A DNA stretch of 64,000 bases from Arenibacter nanhaiticus (GTDB lineage Bacteria > Bacteroidota > Bacteroidia > Flavobacteriales > Flavobacteriaceae), in assembly GCF_900141935.1 (NCBI RefSeq), contig NZ_FQYX01000014.1:1-64000 (forward strand). The letters are read 5' to 3'. Below are positions 28,397 to 64,000 of the stretch, one piece after another. The translations under genes were made by a program, and so were the position numbers. The notes below the pieces were generated by a model that ran no database searches, was not told where the DNA came from, and saw only the letters and a program-made list of their open reading frames with translations. Position 1 is the stretch's first letter. Each line of letters begins with the position of its first letter.

Positions 28397-28407
28397 TCTG
28401 CGAATTT

Positions 28408-28512
28408 AAAGAGGAAGGATTTGACTGATTGCAACCTCAAGGCTGAATTTGTTTTTGTGACTGTTATGGGAACGGAAATAGGTTCGGCATACTAAAAATG
28501 CTAAAGCAGTTT
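28408..28512 (+). ncRNA. SAM-II-like riboswitch before metK
   Basis: The stretch GAGG (28411-28414), then GGATTTGACTGATTGCAA, then CCTC (28435-28438) matches stem P1 and loop 1 of SAM-II (SAM_alpha), whose hallmark is GATTTGAC(C/T)GATTGCA. After a 50-base insert, AAAAATGCTAAAGCAGT (28494-28510) matches the 3' pseudoknot strand with its GCTAAA core. CAGT (28507-28510) pairs with ACTG (28424-28427) in loop 1. It sits just after a strong promoter and 95 bases before metK, the SAM synthase gene, so feedback by SAM is expected. Confidence 0.78.
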
Positions 28513-28606
28513 ATGTTGTCTCTACATCGGAATCTCAGCATCCACTCTTCTTTAGTGTACAGGTCAAATTCTTATTCGTAAAACTAAAGTAAGTAAGAAA
28601 GAGATT

Positions 28607-29935: not shown

Positions 29936-30078
29936 TTGTTATCAAGAAAGGTGGAGGGAATAGACCCTTTGAAACCTTAGCAACCCTTTGCCCCAATATG
30001 CAATGAAGGTGCTAAATTCTATTCGAAAAGGAGATCATCATTGGTGAACTCTAAATATTTTTTCGGAATAGATAACGA
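29936..30078 (+). ncRNA. SAM-I (S-box) riboswitch before metY
   Basis: P1 is GTTATC (29938-29943) with GATAAC (30071-30076). Inside, ATCAAGAAAGGTGGAGGGA and GAAACCTTAGCAACCC, then GAAGGTGCTAAATTC, are the conserved S-box core. It lies 130 bases upstream of metY; I see no clear T-run terminator, so the expression platform may act on translation. Confidence 0.93.
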
Positions 30079-31650: not shown

Positions 31651-34600
31651 ATGCTACAACAACTTACCCTTAGCAATTACGTTACTATTAGCGGCTTTTC
31701 CTTAGATATTACTTTGTCTTATGAGGTCTTCGGACGTCCTTTACATTCAGCGCCAATTATAATGGTTAATCATGCCCTGACTGGGAATTCGACCGTTGCC
31801 GGAGATAAGGGGTGGTGGACTACCTTAATAGGGGAAGGCAAATGTATAGATACCAATAAATATACTATTCTTTGTTTTAATATACCCGGAAACGGTTATG
31901 ACGGATTTGTTATAGAAGAATATAAGGAGTTTGTGGCTAAGGATATTGCGAAAATATTTCTTTTAGGGCTAGAGACCTTAAAAATAACCAAACTTTATTG
32001 CCTTATTGGAGGTTCTTTGGGAGGAGGAATAGCTTGGGAAATGGCAGCCATAAATCCATCGCTTACCCAGCATCTTATCCCTGTGGCTTCCGATTGGAAG
32101 TCTACCGATTGGCTGATAGCGAATTGTCAAATCCAAGAGCAGTTTTTAGTCAATTCCAAAAAGCCGGTACACGACGCCCGTATGCACGCTATGTTGTGTT
32201 ATAGGACTCCGGAATCTTTTAAGGAACGTTTTAAAAGAAGTACCAATGAGGAACTAAAGGTTTTTAACGTAGAAAGCTGGCTTACTCATCATGGAGAAAA
32301 ACTTCAGCAACGTTTTCAGTTATCGGCTTATAAGCTGATGAATCAATTGTTAAAAACCATCGACATTACTCGGGATGGAGAAGAGGCTTTTATCAACCTT
32401 CAAAATAGTAAAACAAATATACATATTATAGGGGTAGACTCTGATTTGTTCTTTACAGCTCAAGAAAATAAGGATACTTTTAAAAAATTAGCGCAGGCCA
32501 ATAGCAACGTTACCTATGGGGAAATAAACTCTCTACACGGACACGATGCCTTTTTATTAGAGTTTAACCAAATGGAAGCGCTGCTTAAAGGGGTATTTGA
32601 ACGCAATGGAAAAGCTAAAAAGATCAAAGTTTTAAAATTTGGAGGAAAATCTTTGGCAAATGGCGAAGGATTGGACACTGTGCTACAAATTGTAGGTGAT
32701 AAGATTAGCGAAGGAGGACATTTGGCGGTGGTGCTTTCGGCACGGAATAAGGCTACCGATGAATTGGAATCCTTATTGGAAAAGGCAGCTAAGGGAAAAG
32801 ATTATCACAAAGGTTTTGAAGATTTTAAAAAATATCAACAATACAATATTGAAAACGTAGATCTTTCGCAAGAGTTTAATGCTTTGTTAAGGTTGTTCGA
32901 AGGGGTTGCCCTTCTAGGAGATTACAGCTTAAAAATTAAAGATCAGGTGTTGGCCTATGGCGAACTTTTGTCTGCAAAAACAGTGACTGCTCTTTTAGTA
33001 TCGAGAGGGGTTAAGGCTAAGTTTATTGACTCTCGAGAGCTTATAAAAACAGATGCCAATTTTGGAGATGCCAAGGTATTGGAAGCTATTTCCAAAGAGA
33101 ATGTTACTCGGGAATTTGCTAGCTTGGGGGCATATGATGTTGTAGTGACTACCGGTTTTATATCATCTACACTAGCGAATGAAACCACTACCCTGGGTAG
33201 AAATGGGAGTAATTATTCTGCCGCCTTGTTAGCCAATTACTTGAATGCCGAAGAGCTGCAGAACTATACGCATGTAGACGGTATTTTTACGGCGAATCCC
33301 GATTTGGTTTCAGATGCAAAAAGAATTTCGGAACTATCCTATAGCGAAGCCAATGAATTGGCCAATTTTGGCGCCAATATTTTACATGCCAAAACGATTA
33401 TTCCTTTGATAGAAAAGAATATTCCGCTTAGGATCCTAAATACTTTTAACGGGGACAATGAAGGCACATTAATCAGTGCCAAAACTAGTAAGGAGGGTAT
33501 AAAATCGCTCTCGGTTATCGAAAATATGGCCTTGATTAATTTAGAAGGTCGCGGTTTATTGGGGAAAGTAGGGGTCGATGCTCGTATTTTTAGAGCTTTG
33601 GGGAATAATAATATTAGTGTTAGTATTATTTCTCAGGGGTCTTCGGAAAGAGGAATCGGATTGGTAGTAGATGCTAAAAATGCGGCCTTGGCGAAATCGT
33701 GCTTGCAAGAAGAATTTCAAACCGATTTTCAACTTCAGGATATCAATAATATCACTGTTGTCGATCAGGTATCCGTGGTTTCCATTGTAGGACAAGATCT
33801 TAGTACTTTTCACAAGCCGTATAATGCCTTGATAAAAAATCAGATAGTACCACTTTTGTTCAACAATACCATTTCGGGTAAAAACGTGAGCTTGGTACTG
33901 AAGAAAACGGATTTAACCAAGGCGCTAAACGTAATGCATGGCCAAATTTTCGGTATCAGCAAAAAGGTAAATATCGCCATATTTGGACATGGGACCGTAG
34001 GAGGCACCTTGATTGACCAAATTCTAAAATCGAATACAACCATAGAGAAACGCAAGGGGGTTCATCTGAATGTTTTTGCTGTAGCCAATTCTAAAGAGGT
34101 GTTGTTGGAAAAGAACGGTATATCTGAAAATTGGAAGTCAGACTTGGGAACAAAGGCCGTTCCTTATACCTTGAAGGATATTTTTGCCTATGCAAAAGCC
34201 AATCATTTAGAAAACCTTATCGCTGTAGATAATACGGCCAATAAGGGTTTTGTAGCCCATTATATCGAATTTGTAGAAAACGGTTTCGATTTAGTATCAT
34301 CCAATAAAATTGCCAACACCCTCGATTTTGATTATTACCAAGATCTAAGAGAGGTGCTGGCTAAAAACCAGAAACAATACTTGTACGAAACCAATGTGGG
34401 AGCAGGATTGCCATTGATAGATACAATTAAGTTGTTGCATTTATCGGGAGAGAACATTACTAGGATAAAGGGAGTGTTCTCTGGATCCTTGAGCTATATA
34501 TTTAATACCTTTTCGGAAAAAGAAGCCCTGTTCTCTGAAATCTTAAAGGAGGCGATGGAAAAAGGATTTACAGAACCAGATCCTCGCGAGGATCTTTCAG

Positions 34601-35037
34601 GGAACGATGTGGGCAGAAAACTATTGATTTTAGCTAGGGAACTCGATTTGCGAAATGAATTTTCCGACATCAATATTGAAAACCTTATTCCCGAGGCATT
34701 ACAGGGAGGTGGTGTAAAAGAGTTCTTAGCTCATTTAAATATCTTGGACGAAAAGTTCAGTGCTATAAAGAAGGCGCAAAAACCAGATCATGTGCTTAGG
34801 TACATAGGAGACCTGTCCGGGGACCTTCAAAGAGAAAAAGGAAATCTAGACGTACAATTGGTATCGGTACCAAAAGAGAGTGCTCTTGGACAAATAAAAG
34901 GATCTGATTCTATTATTGAAATTTATACGGAGTCTTACGGAGAGCATCCTTTGGTAATACAAGGGGCAGGTGCCGGGGCTGCCGTAACGGCAAGAGGTGT
35001 TTTTGGAGATATTCTGAGGATCGCAGAGAAAGGTTAA
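31651..35037 (+). CDS. thrA: MetX-like acetyltransferase / aspartate kinase / homoserine dehydrogenase fusion
   Basis: A 1128-residue three-part protein. Residues 1-320 are an alpha/beta hydrolase of the homoserine O-acetyltransferase type with the nucleophile motif GGSLGG (Ser122), Asp263 or Asp265 and His298, so the triad looks intact. Residues 325-770 are aspartate kinase (LKFGGKSLANGEG, TTLGRNGSNYSAALLANYL) with ACT domains. Residues 772-1128 are homoserine dehydrogenase (NIAIFGHGTVGGTLIDQIL, GVFSGSLSYIFNTF). One polypeptide would thus cover aspartate to O-acetylhomoserine apart from the semialdehyde dehydrogenase step. I use the ATG at 31651; an in-frame upstream extension overlaps the hairpins and has no family sequence. 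Confidence 0.92.
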   Translation: MLQQLTLSNYVTISGFSLDITLSYEVFGRPLHSAPIIMVNHALTGNSTVAGDKGWWTTLIGEGKCIDTNKYTILCFNIPGNGYDGFVIEEYKEFVAKDIAKIFLLGLETLKITKLYCLIGGSLGGGIAWEMAAINPSLTQHLIPVASDWKSTDWLIANCQIQEQFLVNSKKPVHDARMHAMLCYRTPESFKERFKRSTNEELKVFNVESWLTHHGEKLQQRFQLSAYKLMNQLLKTIDITRDGEEAFINLQNSKTNIHIIGVDSDLFFTAQENKDTFKKLAQANSNVTYGEINSLHGHDAFLLEFNQMEALLKGVFERNGKAKKIKVLKFGGKSLANGEGLDTVLQIVGDKISEGGHLAVVLSARNKATDELESLLEKAAKGKDYHKGFEDFKKYQQYNIENVDLSQEFNALLRLFEGVALLGDYSLKIKDQVLAYGELLSAKTVTALLVSRGVKAKFIDSRELIKTDANFGDAKVLEAISKENVTREFASLGAYDVVVTTGFISSTLANETTTLGRNGSNYSAALLANYLNAEELQNYTHVDGIFTANPDLVSDAKRISELSYSEANELANFGANILHAKTIIPLIEKNIPLRILNTFNGDNEGTLISAKTSKEGIKSLSVIENMALINLEGRGLLGKVGVDARIFRALGNNNISVSIISQGSSERGIGLVVDAKNAALAKSCLQEEFQTDFQLQDINNITVVDQVSVVSIVGQDLSTFHKPYNALIKNQIVPLLFNNTISGKNVSLVLKKTDLTKALNVMHGQIFGISKKVNIAIFGHGTVGGTLIDQILKSNTTIEKRKGVHLNVFAVANSKEVLLEKNGISENWKSDLGTKAVPYTLKDIFAYAKANHLENLIAVDNTANKGFVAHYIEFVENGFDLVSSNKIANTLDFDYYQDLREVLAKNQKQYLYETNVGAGLPLIDTIKLLHLSGENITRIKGVFSGSLSYIFNTFSEKEALFSEILKEAMEKGFTEPDPREDLSGNDVGRKLLILARELDLRNEFSDINIENLIPEALQGGGVKEFLAHLNILDEKFSAIKKAQKPDHVLRYIGDLSGDLQREKGNLDVQLVSVPKESALGQIKGSDSIIEIYTESYGEHPLVIQGAGAGAAVTARGVFGDILRIAEKG

Positions 35038-44626: not shown

Positions 44627-44781
44627 ACGTTATCAAGAAAGGCGGAGGGATTAGACCCAATGAAGCCTTAGCAACCCTTTTTTCCACGCCGATAGCGCTC
44701 GGAAGGAATGAAGAAGGTGCTACTTTCTAATCCTGTCAGGATGCCCAAAAAGGGTCTTCGTGGCACAGGAATAGATAACAA
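44627..44781 (+). ncRNA. SAM-I (S-box) riboswitch before metH
   Basis: P1 is GTTATC (44629-44634) with GATAAC (44774-44779). TATCAAGAAAGGCGGAGGGA, GAAGCCTTAGCAACCC and GAAGGTGCTA form the S-box core. A longer extra stem (CCTGTCAGG ... GGCACAGG) distinguishes it from the copy before metY. It controls the split metH operon. No T-run terminator was found in the 185 bases before the gene. Confidence 0.93.
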
Positions 44782-59340: not shown

Positions 59341-60209
59341 TAGGCCTCCATGTACGCAAAACCCTAAAAGGTAGCGGGAAAAACATAGAACTGGAACTTT
59401 CCTTGGATATAAAAAAGGGAGAATTTGTGACGCTTTACGGGGAATCCGGAGCAGGGAAAACGTCGACTTTAAGGTTGCTCAGCGGATTGCTTACTCCCGA
59501 TTTAGGCAATATAACCGTTGACGGAAGCGTGTGGTTCGATGCAGAAAAACAGATAAACCTTCCATCACAAACAAGGAAATTAGGGTATGTATTTCAAGAT
59601 TATGCTCTTTTTCCTCATATGTCGGTTCGTCAAAATTTAGAATTTGCCCTGACTAAAGAACAAGCTAGTACCATTGTTGTTGAATTGTTGGAGTTTATGG
59701 AGCTGTTAGAGCTACAAGACCGCAAACCCATGAGCTTGTCGGGTGGCCAAAAACAAAGGGTAGCCTTGGCGAGAGCCTTGGTTCAACAACCCGAAATTTT
59801 AATTTTGGACGAGCCATTATCAGCCCTAGATTATGCGATGAGGGTAAAATTACAGGCCTATATTTTAAGGATCCATAAAAAGTTTAAGCTTACGACTATT
59901 TTGGTCAGTCACGATATAGGCGAGATTGTTAGAATGTCCGATCGGGTTGTAGAATTGCAAGAAGGGAAAGTCATAAAAACAGCTGCCACGGCAGACTTTT
60001 TTGGATTAAACAAAGCTAGCGCCAAGTTTAAGTTTACCGGAGAAATAATCAGTATTCAAAAGGAAGACGTTGTTTATGTGGTAGGGGTCTTGATCGGCAA
60101 TGAGCTTGTTAAGGTAATAGCCGATCTTGCTGAGGTAAGGCAATTGGCAATTGGGGATAAGGTATATGTGGCATCAAAGGCTTTTAACCCTATACTCCAA
60201 AAAATATAG
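59337..60209 (+). CDS. modC: Molybdate ABC transporter ATP-binding protein
   Basis: A 290-residue ABC ATPase. Walker A GESGAGKTS, signature LSGGQKQRVALARAL and Walker B ILILDEPLSALD are intact. The last 70 residues (FKFTGEIISIQKEDVVYVV) form a short regulatory Mop-like domain. The operon modA-mop-modB-modC ends here, converging on gldA. Confidence 0.95.
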   Translation: MIGLHVRKTLKGSGKNIELELSLDIKKGEFVTLYGESGAGKTSTLRLLSGLLTPDLGNITVDGSVWFDAEKQINLPSQTRKLGYVFQDYALFPHMSVRQNLEFALTKEQASTIVVELLEFMELLELQDRKPMSLSGGQKQRVALARALVQQPEILILDEPLSALDYAMRVKLQAYILRIHKKFKLTTILVSHDIGEIVRMSDRVVELQEGKVIKTAATADFFGLNKASAKFKFTGEIISIQKEDVVYVVGVLIGNELVKVIADLAEVRQLAIGDKVYVASKAFNPILQKI

Positions 60210-60240
60210 TCGGTCTATAGGGGAGTGTCTTTTGTTACCT

Positions 60241-61146
60241 TTATGAATGCGAAGCTTGGGTGAGTTCGGTAAACAAACTTTCTAGGTTTTTATTTTTTCT
60301 ACTCAATTGTAGGGTCTTCAATTCGTTGTCATGGGCAAAGTCGAAAACCTCGGCTCGCATATCCTTAGTGGTGTCAAAAGTTATTTCATAGATAAATCCA
60401 CCTGTATTGATAACATTGGTAGCGTAGGGTAGTTTCTTAAGAAAAGCCTCTTCAACCCTAAAATCAAATTCAACCAGCAATACCTGTTCTTCTTCCTTCC
60501 TAAGATCCGATAGTCTTTTATCGGCTACCAGGCATCCCTTGTCAATAATGAGCACCCGATCGCATACCGCTTCTACCTCTTTCATAATATGTGTCGAAAG
60601 TAGAATGGTTTTTTCTTTCCCGATTTCGAGAATTAATTTTCTGATTTCCAGCAATTGGTTAGGATCCAATCCGGTAGTGGGTTCGTCTAAGATTAAGACT
60701 TCCGGATCGTGTAAAAGAGCAGCTGCCAAGCCTACTCTTTGACGATATCCTTTAGAAAGTTGCCCTATTTTTTTTGGGGATTCTGGTCCTAGCCCCGTTT
60801 GTTCAATTACTTTAGCAATATTCTCCTTATTGACCTTATATACCTCTGCATTGAAATTTAAGTATTCCTTTACATACATATCTAGGTATAATGGGTTGTG
60901 TTCCGCGAGGTAGCCAATACTCTTTTGCACATTCTTTTTATCCTTCGTTACATCGTATGAATTTACATAGGCCTCACCGCTATCGGCCTGGTGATAGGTC
61001 GTTAAAACCTTCATCATGGTAGATTTTCCTGCGCCGTTAGGACCTAAGAAGCCTACAATTTCACCTTTGTTAATGGTGAAGCTAACGTTATTCAGGGCTT
61101 TTGTGTTGCCAAAGGATTTACTGATGTTTTTTACGGTAATCGACAT
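60241..61146 (-). CDS. gldA: Gliding motility ABC transporter ATPase GldA
   Basis: A 301-residue ABC ATPase. Walker A GPNGAGKST, signature LSKGYRQRVGLAAAL and Walker B VLILDEPTTGLDP are intact. The N-terminal VKNISKSFGNTKALNNVSF and C-terminal QLSRKNKNLESLFTELT match GldA of Flavobacterium, which works with the membrane proteins GldF and GldG (not in the window) in gliding. A general ABC-2 export role is the alternative. The start at 61146 matches the family. Confidence 0.85.
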   Translation of the reverse strand: MSITVKNISKSFGNTKALNNVSFTINKGEIVGFLGPNGAGKSTMMKVLTTYHQADSGEAYVNSYDVTKDKKNVQKSIGYLAEHNPLYLDMYVKEYLNFNAEVYKVNKENIAKVIEQTGLGPESPKKIGQLSKGYRQRVGLAAALLHDPEVLILDEPTTGLDPNQLLEIRKLILEIGKEKTILLSTHIMKEVEAVCDRVLIIDKGCLVADKRLSDLRKEEEQVLLVEFDFRVEEAFLKKLPYATNVINTGGFIYEITFDTTKDMRAEVFDFAHDNELKTLQLSRKNKNLESLFTELTQASHS

Positions 61147-61164
61147 AGCGTAAGTTTTGATCAA

Positions 61165-61421
61165 AAATAAAGCAAAATAATGAAAGGGAGATTTGAAAGA
61201 TAGTTATTCTTAAAATAGCTGATTTACAGTCCTCTTGTAGTCATTGTAGCCATCAAATGGGAATTCTGTGAAATAAAAGGGTTCATTATTCCTAAATTTA
61301 GGCGGTACTTATAGAGGGAATTCATAAAAATCTTCCGCTGAAAATAAATATTGAAAAAAAAGATGTTTGGCGAAGCATTTTTTTAAATTTAATGATTACT
61401 TTAGCTGAACATTTACAAATA
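61165..61421. other. Divergent gap between gldA and the phe operon leader
   Basis: About 255 AT-rich bases. A TACTTTAG sequence (61397-61404), one mismatch from TAnnTTTG, lies 17 bases before the leader ATG and is the best promoter candidate. Confidence 0.4.
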
Positions 61422-61493
61422 ATGACAAAACAATATTTCTGGATCGGCTTTTATTTTAACTTCTTTTTTCAAAGAGGCATGGGACTGTTCTAG
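61422..61493 (+). CDS. pheL: Phenylalanine-rich leader peptide of the phe/tyr operon
   Basis: A 23-residue frame, starting MTKQYFWIGFYFNFFF, with eight Phe codons, two Tyr and one Trp; the run F-N-F-F-F is at residues 12-16. It ends TAG at 61491-61493, 98 bases before pheA. Phe codons this dense, followed at once by mutually exclusive hairpins and a T run, is the layout of an amino-acid attenuator. It is analogous to enterobacterial pheL, but I claim similarity of layout, not homology. Confidence 0.85.
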   Translation: MTKQYFWIGFYFNFFFQRGMGLF

Positions 61494-61551
61494 CATATTT
61501 TAAAGTATATATATAGATAAAAGTCCCGTGAAAACTGGGACTTTTTTTTTT
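61478..61551 (+). promoter_or_regulatory. Transcription attenuator before pheA
   Basis: Terminator: AAAAGTCCC (61519-61527) pairs with GGGACTTTT (61537-61545), followed by ten T. Antiterminator: CATGGGACT (61478-61486), inside the leader frame, pairs with AGTCCCGTG (61522-61530), one wobble, using the same terminator arm. An upstream stem CTTCTTT/AAAGAGG (61460-61477) covers the Phe codons. Ribosome stalling at Phe codons would favour the antiterminator and expression. Confidence 0.85.
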
Positions 61552-61591
61552 GGAATAAATTGATTGAAGTTTCCCTTTAGGAAAAAAAGAA

Positions 61592-62422
61592 ATGGCATTG
61601 AAAATAGCGATACAAGGAATAAAAGGTTCAAACCACCATCAAGTTGCAAGGGACTATTTTGGGGATGAGGTAGATTTGGTAGAATGTTCATCATTTGACC
61701 TTTTGGTAGAACATTTGTTGAATAAAACAGCAGATAAAGGAATTATGGCCATAGAGAATTCTATCGCCGGATCTATCATTCCTAATTATGCTCTGGTGTT
61801 CAGTAACAATCTTCATATAATAGGGGAACACTATTTAAATATCCATCACAATTTGATGGTATTGAAGGGGCAGACCTTAGATGATATTAAAGAAGTGCAT
61901 TCGCATCCTATGGCATTGTTGCAATGCAAGGACTTTTTTAGGAATTATAAACATATTAAATTGGTAGAGGATGTAGATACTGCAGAGACTGCCAAAAGAA
62001 TTCAAGAAGGTCGGTTAATGGGAGTAGCGGCCATAGCGCCAAAAGTTGCTGCCGAATTGTACGGACTAGAAATTATAGAGGCCAACATTCAGACCATAAA
62101 GGACAACTCTACCAGATTTATAGTGGTAAAGACCCAAAATAAAGTTTTGCCCGAATCTGCAATCAATAAGGCGTCTGTACGTTTTATTACAGATCATAAA
62201 CGAGGGAGTTTGGCAGCAATATTAAACGTGATGAGTGATTGTAATTTAAACCTTACAAAAATACAATCCCTACCAGTGATAGAAATGCCATGGAAATATT
62301 CCTTTTTTGTAGATGTTACTTTTGAGAAGTACCAGCATTTTGAAAAGGCAAAAGCTCTTTTAGAGATTATGTCAGAAGAATTTAAAGTTTTAGGAGAATA
62401 TAAAAACGCAAGAATAATATGA
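61592..62422 (+). CDS. pheA: Prephenate dehydratase
   Basis: A 276-residue monofunctional enzyme making phenylpyruvate from prephenate, without the chorismate mutase domain of the E. coli fusion. KIAIQGIKGSNHHQVARDYF opens the catalytic domain and DNSTRFIVV (TRF motif) closes it. A C-terminal ACT domain (RFITDHKRGSLAAILNVMSD, LTKIQSLP) should bind phenylalanine for feedback. It lies behind the Phe leader and overlaps the aminotransferase by 4 bases. Confidence 0.96.
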   Translation: MALKIAIQGIKGSNHHQVARDYFGDEVDLVECSSFDLLVEHLLNKTADKGIMAIENSIAGSIIPNYALVFSNNLHIIGEHYLNIHHNLMVLKGQTLDDIKEVHSHPMALLQCKDFFRNYKHIKLVEDVDTAETAKRIQEGRLMGVAAIAPKVAAELYGLEIIEANIQTIKDNSTRFIVVKTQNKVLPESAINKASVRFITDHKRGSLAAILNVMSDCNLNLTKIQSLPVIEMPWKYSFFVDVTFEKYQHFEKAKALLEIMSEEFKVLGEYKNARII

Positions 62423-63561
62423 TTGCCGCAGACAGACTAAATACCGTTGAAGAGTACTATTTCTCTAAAAAACTAAGAGAGGTAAGAGGATTAATGGCAA
62501 AAGGTAGGCCAATAATTAATATGGGTATCGGAAGTCCAGATCTGGACCCGTCCATAGAAGTACTTAATGTTGTAAAGGAAGCCCTTAATCATGACGGGGC
62601 CCACCAATATCAAAGTTATCAGGGCTTGCCTGAATTAAGAGCCTCTTTTGCCAGTTTTTATAAGGATAAATTTGACGTGGTGATTGATCCTGCAACTGAA
62701 GTTTTGCCGTTAATGGGGTCTAAGGAAGGTATTATGCATATAAGCTTGGCATTTTTAAATCCAGGTGATGAGGTGCTGATTCCGAACCCTGGATACCCAA
62801 CCTATACTTCGGTGACCAATTTAGTAGGCGCAGTTGCGAAATACTATGATTTGGTAGGAGAGCAGCAATGGTTTCCGGATTTAGAAAAATTGCAGCAGCA
62901 AGATCTTTCTAAGGTAAAAATTATGTGGACCTGTTATCCGCATATGCCAACGGGAGCTACAGCTAGCTTGGAGCAATTACAAAAGCTGGTTGCTTTTGCT
63001 AAAAAGAACGATATTTTATTAGTGAACGACAATCCTTATAGTTTTGTGTTAAATGACAGCCCCATAAGTATATTAAATATAGAGGGTGCCAAGGAGGTGG
63101 CAATGGAGCTGAACTCACTAAGCAAGACCTTTAATATGGCCGGATGGCGAGTTGGAATGATATTAGGGAATGCAGACCATATTAATGCCGTTTTAAAGGT
63201 AAAGAGCAATATGGATTCGGGAATGTTTTACGGCATCCAAAAAGGCGCAATTGCAGCTTTAAATAGTGAAGATTCTTGGTTTAAGGAATTGAATAAAATT
63301 TATGACCAAAGAAGGGAATTGATCTATGTACTTGCCGATAAGTTGAATTGTGTCTACGATAAAAATTCAGTAGGAATGTTTGTTTGGGCCAAATTGCCCC
63401 AAGGAATCCAATCGGCAGAGAAGTTTATCGACGAAGTCTTGTACGATAAAAATATCTTTATTACTCCTGGGACCATTTTTGGATCTAATGGGGAAGGGTA
63501 TATCAGGTTCTCTTTATGTGTGACAGCCGATAAAATTAATGAGGCGATAAGTAGATTTTAA
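62419..63561 (+). CDS. Class I/II aminotransferase of the phe/tyr operon
   Basis: A 380-residue fold-type I PLP enzyme. NMGIGSPDLDPS, HQYQSYQGLPELRASF, NPGYPTYTSV and SLSKTFNMAGWRVGM (PLP lysine) are intact. Between pheA and a prephenate dehydrogenase, it most likely transaminates phenylpyruvate and hydroxyphenylpyruvate to Phe and Tyr; an aspartate or prephenate aminotransferase is the alternative. Confidence 0.88.
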   Translation: MIAADRLNTVEEYYFSKKLREVRGLMAKGRPIINMGIGSPDLDPSIEVLNVVKEALNHDGAHQYQSYQGLPELRASFASFYKDKFDVVIDPATEVLPLMGSKEGIMHISLAFLNPGDEVLIPNPGYPTYTSVTNLVGAVAKYYDLVGEQQWFPDLEKLQQQDLSKVKIMWTCYPHMPTGATASLEQLQKLVAFAKKNDILLVNDNPYSFVLNDSPISILNIEGAKEVAMELNSLSKTFNMAGWRVGMILGNADHINAVLKVKSNMDSGMFYGIQKGAIAALNSEDSWFKELNKIYDQRRELIYVLADKLNCVYDKNSVGMFVWAKLPQGIQSAEKFIDEVLYDKNIFITPGTIFGSNGEGYIRFSLCVTADKINEAISRF

Positions 63562-63681
63562 ACAGCCTTGGAGGACGATAAACGAAGGCTGTCTTTGTAA
63601 AACTGAAATATAGAATATAGGGGCCGAAGAAAAGCGACCATAAAGTGATTGTTATTCTTTACCCTTAAAGCTAAAAGAAAT

Positions 63682-64000
63682 ATGAATTTATTTGTAATCG
63701 GAATTGGGCTCATTGGGGGGTCTATGGCAAAAGATGTGAAACGTCTGCGTCCCAACACCAAAATTTTTGGAATAGATGCCAATGAGGCTCATTTGGAAGA
63801 GGCGCTGTCCTTATCCTTGATCGATGAGAAATCAGATTATAGCGAGCTTCATAAGGCCGATATGGTAATGGTCAGTATTCCGGTAGATGTAATGGTACAG
63901 GAATTACCTAAAATACTAGATGCGGTAAACGAAGATGCCGTGGTAATCGATGCAGGATCTACCAAGGCCTTAATATGTAGTGTTTTGGAAGGTCATCCCA
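63682..64000 (+). CDS. tyrA: Prephenate dehydrogenase, N-terminal part (cut by window end)
   Basis: The first 106 residues of an NAD(P)-dependent dehydrogenase. MNLFVIGIGLIGGSMAKDVK is the Rossmann motif, and DMVMVSIPVDVMVQELPKIL with AVVIDAGSTKALI are TyrA hallmarks. It starts 120 bases after the aminotransferase. It would make hydroxyphenylpyruvate, completing the Tyr branch of the operon. Confidence 0.88.
   Translation, partial: MNLFVIGIGLIGGSMAKDVKRLRPNTKIFGIDANEAHLEEALSLSLIDEKSDYSELHKADMVMVSIPVDVMVQELPKILDAVNEDAVVIDAGSTKALICSVLEGHP

Follow-up and report, generated by a model that had tools for sequence, protein, structure and literature searches.

Does the 427-nt intergenic region between a divergent ABC-transporter gene and pheA carry an attenuator of aromatic amino-acid synthesis and, if so, which amino acids would it sense? 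This was addressed in a stretch of 64,000 nt from Arenibacter nanhaiticus (henceforth called the window) by analysing the leader itself, its counterparts in near and distant relatives, and the predicted folding of the RNA with ribosomes placed at defined codons. The element is best read, at a probability of roughly 90%, as a ribosome-mediated transcription attenuator of a pheA-aminotransferase-tyrA-aroF operon that would respond to the charging of both tRNA-Phe and tRNA-Tyr, and, as its layout recurs in many related bacteria, it very probably senses starvation for Phe/Tyr. Such an element would provide a concrete and conserved rule for how aromatic amino-acid synthesis is controlled in a phylum where few described attenuators were found; it would also be a ready reporter for transcription-translation coupling in Bacteroidota, a question that attenuators answer directly.

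Leader frame, terminator and antiterminator at pheA

The leader frame (Table 1) contains seven Phe codons (starting at 61437, 61449, 61455, 61461, 61464, 61467 and 61488), two Tyr codons and one Trp codon among its 23 codons, and its stop codon lies at 61491. The initial annotation had reported a 23-codon frame with eight Phe codons; the frame was recovered, and the number of Phe codons was corrected to seven. When the 427-nt region was dinucleotide-shuffled 2000 times, the observed nine aromatic residues in 14 were matched twice. At codon 13 the window has Asn, unlike the Tyr of most relatives. Upstream of the frame, a candidate −7 promoter box was located, for which the flavobacterial consensus given in the available text of PMC9723704 is TAnnTTTG. 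A TTAGC/TTAGT-like element at a similar distance was seen by eye in most of 20 inspected upstream stretches (of the 80 near relatives described below); an automatic scan of the relatives for −7/−33 promoter motifs returned scattered positions. The leader is predicted to be transcribed and translated, and the downstream genes to share one transcript. The aminotransferase gene and pheA overlap by 4 nt, and PheA has a C-terminal ACT-like stretch with an ACT score below the Pfam cut-off. In Arenibacter sp. 6A1 (L001; PheA 97% identical), tyrA is followed by aroF, a name used here for the DAHP synthase/chorismate mutase gene (PF00793 + PF01817).

Table 1. Coordinates of the leader elements, genes and riboswitch matches in the window
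Feature	Position	Strand	Remark
Candidate −7 promoter box	61397..61404	+	TACTTTAG, 17 nt 5' of leader ATG
Leader peptide frame	61422..61493	+	23 codons, reads MTKQYFWIGFYFNFFFQRGMGLF followed by the stop
Putative regulatory codons FYFNFFF	61449..61469	+	Relatives mostly FYFYFFF
Hairpin over last Phe codons (part of region 1)	61460..61477	+	
Antiterminator strand (region 2)	61478..61486	+	CATGGGACT, within the reading frame
Terminator left arm (region 3)	61519..61528	+	61522-61528 common to antiterminator
Terminator right arm (region 4) and T-run	61536..61551	+	
pheA, prephenate dehydratase	61592..62422	+	PF00800, E 2.9e-57
Class I/II aminotransferase	62419..63561	+	PF00155, E 8.2e-63
tyrA, prephenate dehydrogenase	63682..64000, cut by window end	+	PF02153
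SAM-II and two SAM riboswitches	28405-28514, 29936-30040, 44627-44781		

Between the leader and the first structural gene lies an intrinsic terminator, whose hairpin (61519-61545) has ten pairs including G-U and runs into ten T (61542-61551), leaving a gap of 40 nt to pheA. Part of its left arm can pair instead with the antiterminator strand, CATGGGACT (61478-61486) with AGTCCCGTG (61522-61530), over nine pairs. Taken by itself, the window terminator does not exceed chance expectation (shuffles would give 1.6, and one was found), and the leader folds better than its shuffles with a z-score of −2.14, 5 of 200 being equally good; the decisive support for the attenuator is conservation, not these chance statistics of the window.

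Near relatives were represented by the best 80 of 289 pheA loci from named genomes, most of them in genera of the Flavobacteriaceae (Arenibacter, Maribacter, Allomuricauda/Flagellimonas, Zobellia, Muriicola and others). A leader frame with clustered aromatic codons was present in all 79 loci with enough upstream sequence, the locus left out of this count (L046) having 155 bases upstream, a stretch that does hold the terminator; the terminator was found by script in 80/80 rows. The frame follows the approximate consensus MTxxYFWNGFYFYFFFKRGxGLL/F. Among the 71 distinct 23-codon frames, Phe occupies codons 10, 12, 14, 15 and 16 in at least 69 each, Tyr is found at codon 13 in 67 and at codon 11 in 59, and the Trp of codon 7 is retained in 59. 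Phe codons 6, 10 and 12 wobble between TTT and TTC, codons 14-16 are nearly fixed, and substitutions in the core are mostly F/Y exchanges. Of the 64 single-base codon alternatives, 20 are synonymous, and of the 11 within the core 5 are; against the 19% expected, this is a moderate enrichment. The aromatic content is specific to the frame, with on average 9.8 of 12 codons compared to 2.9 and 3.8 in the other two frames (80 near loci). One near relative (L066, 4862-4985) has a shorter leader frame than its relatives, with the stop codon within the antiterminator strand, which may reflect either genuine variation or an assembly error.

Pairing was scored after aligning the window with 79 loci (alignment A1; 78 distinct rows, the ends of L036 and L023 set by hand). 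The antiterminator is paired in 91.6% of cells, with six of nine pairs doubly changed, compared to 23-52% when the partner strand was slid; column shuffling (500 rounds) reached the paired percentage twice, the count of doubly changed pairs likewise twice and that of pair types 51 times, contrasts that relatedness of the rows can inflate. For the terminator, 92.9% of cells are paired (21-66% in slid controls) and six of ten pairs are doubly changed, none of 500 column shuffles reaching either value and 10 reaching the number of pair types, with the same reservation as to relatedness. Since the left arm is common to both structures, the changes run through three strands at once. Over the last Phe codons, the hairpin pairs in 97.8% of cells with zero double changes, and the codons alone could account for this pairing. 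The outer 1:2 stem is paired in 78.8% of cells (42-50% slid) and covaries weakly, its number of doubly changed pairs being equalled by 98 of 500 shuffles. Much of what the initial annotation had proposed is thus borne out: the terminator with ten T after the frame is present and kept in relatives, its left arm does have an alternative partner inside the leader, and frame and alternative pairing are both conserved, which had been named there as the check to be made. The 1:2 stem that it had drawn over the Phe codons is paired almost throughout, but is weakly supported because its pairs show no double changes.

Reach across Bacteroidota and linkage to aroF

A covariance model of the leader gave 33 matches in 395 Bacteroidota genomes in a search that scores few candidates per genome and misses much. 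Thirty of the loci were examined, of which 26 (the window's included) lie directly 5' of pheA and four have no pheA nearby; the matches at pheA reach down to about 42% PheA identity. Direct inspection of pheA loci served better. A distant set of 73 pheA loci (59 + 14) was not drawn at random but picked for family spread; of the 198 genomes considered, 172 had a PF00800 match and could supply loci. An aromatic leader was defined as a run of 14 residues in one frame of which at least 7 are aromatic, with a stop within 70 nt, and linkage to aroF as a gene with at least 44% identity to the aroF of L001, downstream and on the same strand; both the 7-of-14 rule and the 44% cut-off were chosen after a first look at the loci. 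Under these definitions, an aromatic leader precedes pheA in 42/42 aroF-linked and 1/31 unlinked loci, a contrast that is partly one of ancestry, since the linked loci are mostly from the window's class (19 from its family, 20 from elsewhere in the class, 3 from other classes) and the unlinked ones mostly from outside it (6 inside, 25 outside).

The association extends to the other parts of the element. A terminator was found by script in 39 of the 42 linked loci, and the remaining three (L190, L191, L194) have a hairpin with a bulge or mismatch, as judged by eye. An antiterminator duplex of −8 kcal/mol or better was obtained in 38/42; in L193 the terminator is present and the duplex is weak. 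As background, 118 aromatic windows were counted in the remaining sequence of the first 59 loci (0.80 Mb, both strands); two of them had a terminator, and in both the duplex was weak.

In three genomes of one genus (G076, G194, G111), pheA-aminotransferase-tyrA lacks the leader, and aroF lies about 2.4-2.5 kb upstream of pheA on the same strand. Directly before that aroF, a leader (..YFTFFYFYFRS..) with a terminator was found in all three; the second aroF copy of G111 has no leader. It looks as if the element goes with the head of the cluster.

Two further arrangements were observed. In L190 (G072), L185 (G166) and L186 (G037), two aromatic-rich frames stand in series about 150-340 nt 5' of pheA; the scan recovered both terminators in L186, the first in L185 and neither in L190, where hairpins with bulges were seen by eye. 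These serial leaders look like doubled attenuators. In L243 (G012) and L245 (G095), both from the window's order, aromatic-rich frames (..YYWYC, ..FYWYC) lie about 150-300 nt upstream of aroF with no scanned terminator, and are perhaps a different control.

Spacing and folding of the proposed switch

In the proposed mechanism, a ribosome supplied with both charged tRNAs would pass the aromatic codons and reach the stop codon, where it would cover 61478-61486; the left arm of the terminator would thereby be left free, the terminator would form and RNA polymerase would stop in the T-run. If charged tRNA-Phe or tRNA-Tyr were short, the ribosome would stall on codons 10-16 with its front edge ending about where 61478 begins, and the exposed antiterminator strand would capture the left arm once it is made, so that the terminator would be forestalled and the operon transcribed. 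That stalling occurs, that folding of the antiterminator outruns the polymerase and that Tyr is sensed besides Phe is what we infer from the sequence.

The spacing between codons and antiterminator was measured in 30 distant loci (29 aroF-linked, 1 unlinked), with the search for the strand confined to 3 to 45 nt past the last aromatic codon. The antiterminator starts 8.7 ± 2.1 nt (3 to 14) past that codon, and the distance from the codon to the end of the stop codon varies between 9 and 42 nt; when the regions were dinucleotide-shuffled, the start of the best duplex fell at 19.6 ± 10.6 nt. The energy of the antiterminator was reached by less than 5% of shuffles in 26 of the 30 loci and by more in 4, compared to 19 and 11 in an earlier, cruder test (ungapped, run over the whole leader-to-terminator stretch, with two leaders mis-chosen). 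A ribosome with a codon in its A site would be expected to cover about 10 nt beyond that codon, the front of its footprint being taken as some 15 nt downstream of the first P-site base. Given a spacing of 8.7 nt, the antiterminator strand hence begins at the edge that a stalled ribosome would have, and the fixed spacing is the one expected if stalling takes place.

Folding was then predicted for nascent RNA (before the right arm is made) and for the full RNA. In the window, a ribosome on codon 10, 12 or 14 makes the antiterminator the optimal fold, in the full RNA as well, and P(terminator) is 0.18 at full-RNA equilibrium in the stalled state; on codon 16, the antiterminator forms first and then loses to the finished terminator (equilibrium P 0.90), and with a ribosome at the stop the terminator forms (P 1.0). 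In nascent RNA, a ribosome on the third-last aromatic codon leads to capture of the left arm in 80/80 near loci (window included) and 30/30 distant loci, and a ribosome on the last aromatic codon in 80/80 and 29/30; a ribosome at the stop leaves it captured in 9/80 and 0/30. The antiterminator strand, whose pairing excludes the terminator, accordingly lies outside the footprint of the stalled ribosome and inside that of a ribosome at the stop, but the equilibrium on the full RNA disagrees in most loci: with a stalled ribosome, the terminator still wins in 65/80 near and 25/30 distant loci. The switch would therefore have to be kinetic, and these counts speak against a purely thermodynamic switch. 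In the window without any ribosome, nascent RNA folds into the antiterminator (P 1.0) and the finished RNA into the terminator (0.93), so a kinetic switch might then read through an untranslated leader.

A broader proposal, for which we see the chances as evenly balanced, is that a joint Phe and Tyr attenuator is an old and widespread control of pheA-aroF in much of the Bacteroidota, which would move with the head of the cluster and be doubled in some lineages, and whose fixed spacing between codons and antiterminator would reflect coupling of ribosome and RNA polymerase in bacteria said to lack Shine-Dalgarno starts.

Alternative readings, known attenuators and other leaders

The initial annotation had called the element a Phe attenuator, which holds in substance; it did not mention the Tyr codons, which are nearly as conserved as those for Phe. 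That the same attenuator senses Phe only, with Tyr and Trp codons arising through easy exchange among aromatic codons, would fit the position of pheA as first cluster gene in the window and the linked loci as well as the 7 to 2 ratio of Phe to Tyr codons in the window. We consider it unlikely, though worth keeping in mind, as Tyr is retained at codons 13 and 11 in the near frames, and at least two Tyr codons occur in each of the 30 distant leaders (totals 109 Tyr and 146 Phe) and in 79 of 80 near leaders, the remaining one having a single Tyr. Since 109 of 110 leaders thus have two or more Tyr codons, the element is read as a Phe/Tyr attenuator; Trp is absent from 20 of the 30 distant leader cores. 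The inclusion of tyrA and aroF in the cluster likewise goes against sensing of Phe alone, and a cluster of pheA, tyrA and aroF is what dual sensing would suit. A tie between Tyr codons and the presence of tyrA was not upheld: pheA-aroF clusters without a detected tyrA keep Tyr.

Readings without an attenuator of transcription fare worse. A hairpin close to the start codon might chiefly affect translation of pheA, as many Allomuricauda/Flagellimonas T-runs end 2-5 nt before the gene; with a gap of 40 nt in the window and of up to 99 nt elsewhere, and with hairpin and T-run kept regardless, this is very unlikely. The strongly hydrophobic core, well conserved in near relatives, would also be compatible with a functional small membrane peptide followed by an ordinary terminator. 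This is a highly improbable account of a peptide whose residues outside the core vary across the phylum (..SKSRD, ..CRD, ..SRVVFAKA) without loss of pairing with the terminator arm, and whose conserved C-terminal residues track the antiterminator strand. Least probable is that the strongly U-rich stretch is not read as codons but bound by a protein, by Rho or by a small RNA, since a single frame holds the aromatic content, stops occur in another frame in 61/80 near and 23/30 distant loci, and the spacing that stays fixed is the one between the last aromatic codon and the antiterminator.

The enterobacterial attenuators of pheL-pheA and pheM-pheST (Rfam RF01859) have a Phe-rich leader and a terminator with a mutually exclusive antiterminator. 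The leader described here resembles pheL-pheA in its Phe-rich frame and in the exclusive structures before pheA, and differs from it in the conserved Tyr codons, the antiterminator strand within the frame and the presence of tyrA and aroF in the cluster. Regulatory codons for several operon products in one leader are known from thr and ilvGMEDA; these leaders share that principle with the one described here, but serve the threonine and branched-chain pathways and have no aromatic run. Earlier surveys of attenuators have been published by Lyubetsky, Seliverstov and colleagues. Against Rfam 15, the window scored 22 bits with RF01859 Phe_leader (gathering 55, E 2.1), which is below the cut-off. 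RF01692 Bacteroid-trp, like the pheA leader a leader-peptide attenuator of Bacteroidota but with Trp codons before trpE, had no match at pheA at the gathering threshold, nor at E-values up to 10 in 60000-64000. Other cis-regulators (T-box, riboswitch) had no gathering-level match at pheA, and none of six distant pheA leaders had a match at the cut-off.

Leader peptides in this phylum have been noted before. Bacteroid-trp is listed in PMC2864571, and short frames reminiscent of leader peptides are described for Bacteroides in the available text of PMC7366714. For F. psychrophilum, the corresponding text of PMC9723704 reports strong clues for leader-peptide attenuation before amino-acid operons and structured 5' elements at pheA and hisG that are present in other Flavobacteriaceae genera, the pheA element being without an Rfam match; that text gives no peptide, pairing, spacing or reach beyond the family for it. 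The accessible part of PMC4833913 contained no mention of pheA, and neither among the open-access papers listed nor in the available text of these four was a description of a Phe/Tyr leader, its spacing, reach or doubling seen. The attenuator kind is already known; what appears particular here is the combination of Phe/Tyr codons with an antiterminator strand inside the frame.

Comparable leaders precede other amino-acid genes in the window's genome: a Trp-rich frame before trpE (MKNRISNTWWWTNLRQTS; L084/L198) and a His-rich frame before hisG (MKNKNTHHHHFHTGDQAR; L082), both with a terminator, and an Ile/Val-rich frame before ilvD (MQINNNIINVVIIIPEMG; L087) whose terminator ends about 340 nt before the gene. 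Within the window's family, a His leader with terminator was found in 20 of 21 hisG loci (the window's genome included), and Trp clusters in 24 of 24 trpE loci, 22 of them with a terminator. The trpE leader of the window's genome matches RF01692 with 62.4 bits (cut-off 49); by the duplex method used for the pheA leaders, antiterminators of the Trp leaders are weak. For a Thr leader, no scanned terminator was found between the homoserine dehydrogenase gene of C78 and the gene preceding it. That a single genome carries leaders for Phe/Tyr, His, Trp and Ile/Val alike suggests that these bacteria use attenuation as a general strategy.

Elsewhere in the window, more than 16 kb from pheA, the Rfam gathering matches were one SAM-II and two SAM (S-box) riboswitches. 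A single frame of 1128 codons (31651-35037) combines an alpha/beta hydrolase fold, presumably a homoserine acetyltransferase, with amino-acid kinase, ACT and homoserine dehydrogenase domains, and is probably a fusion of homoserine acetyltransferase with aspartokinase/homoserine dehydrogenase.
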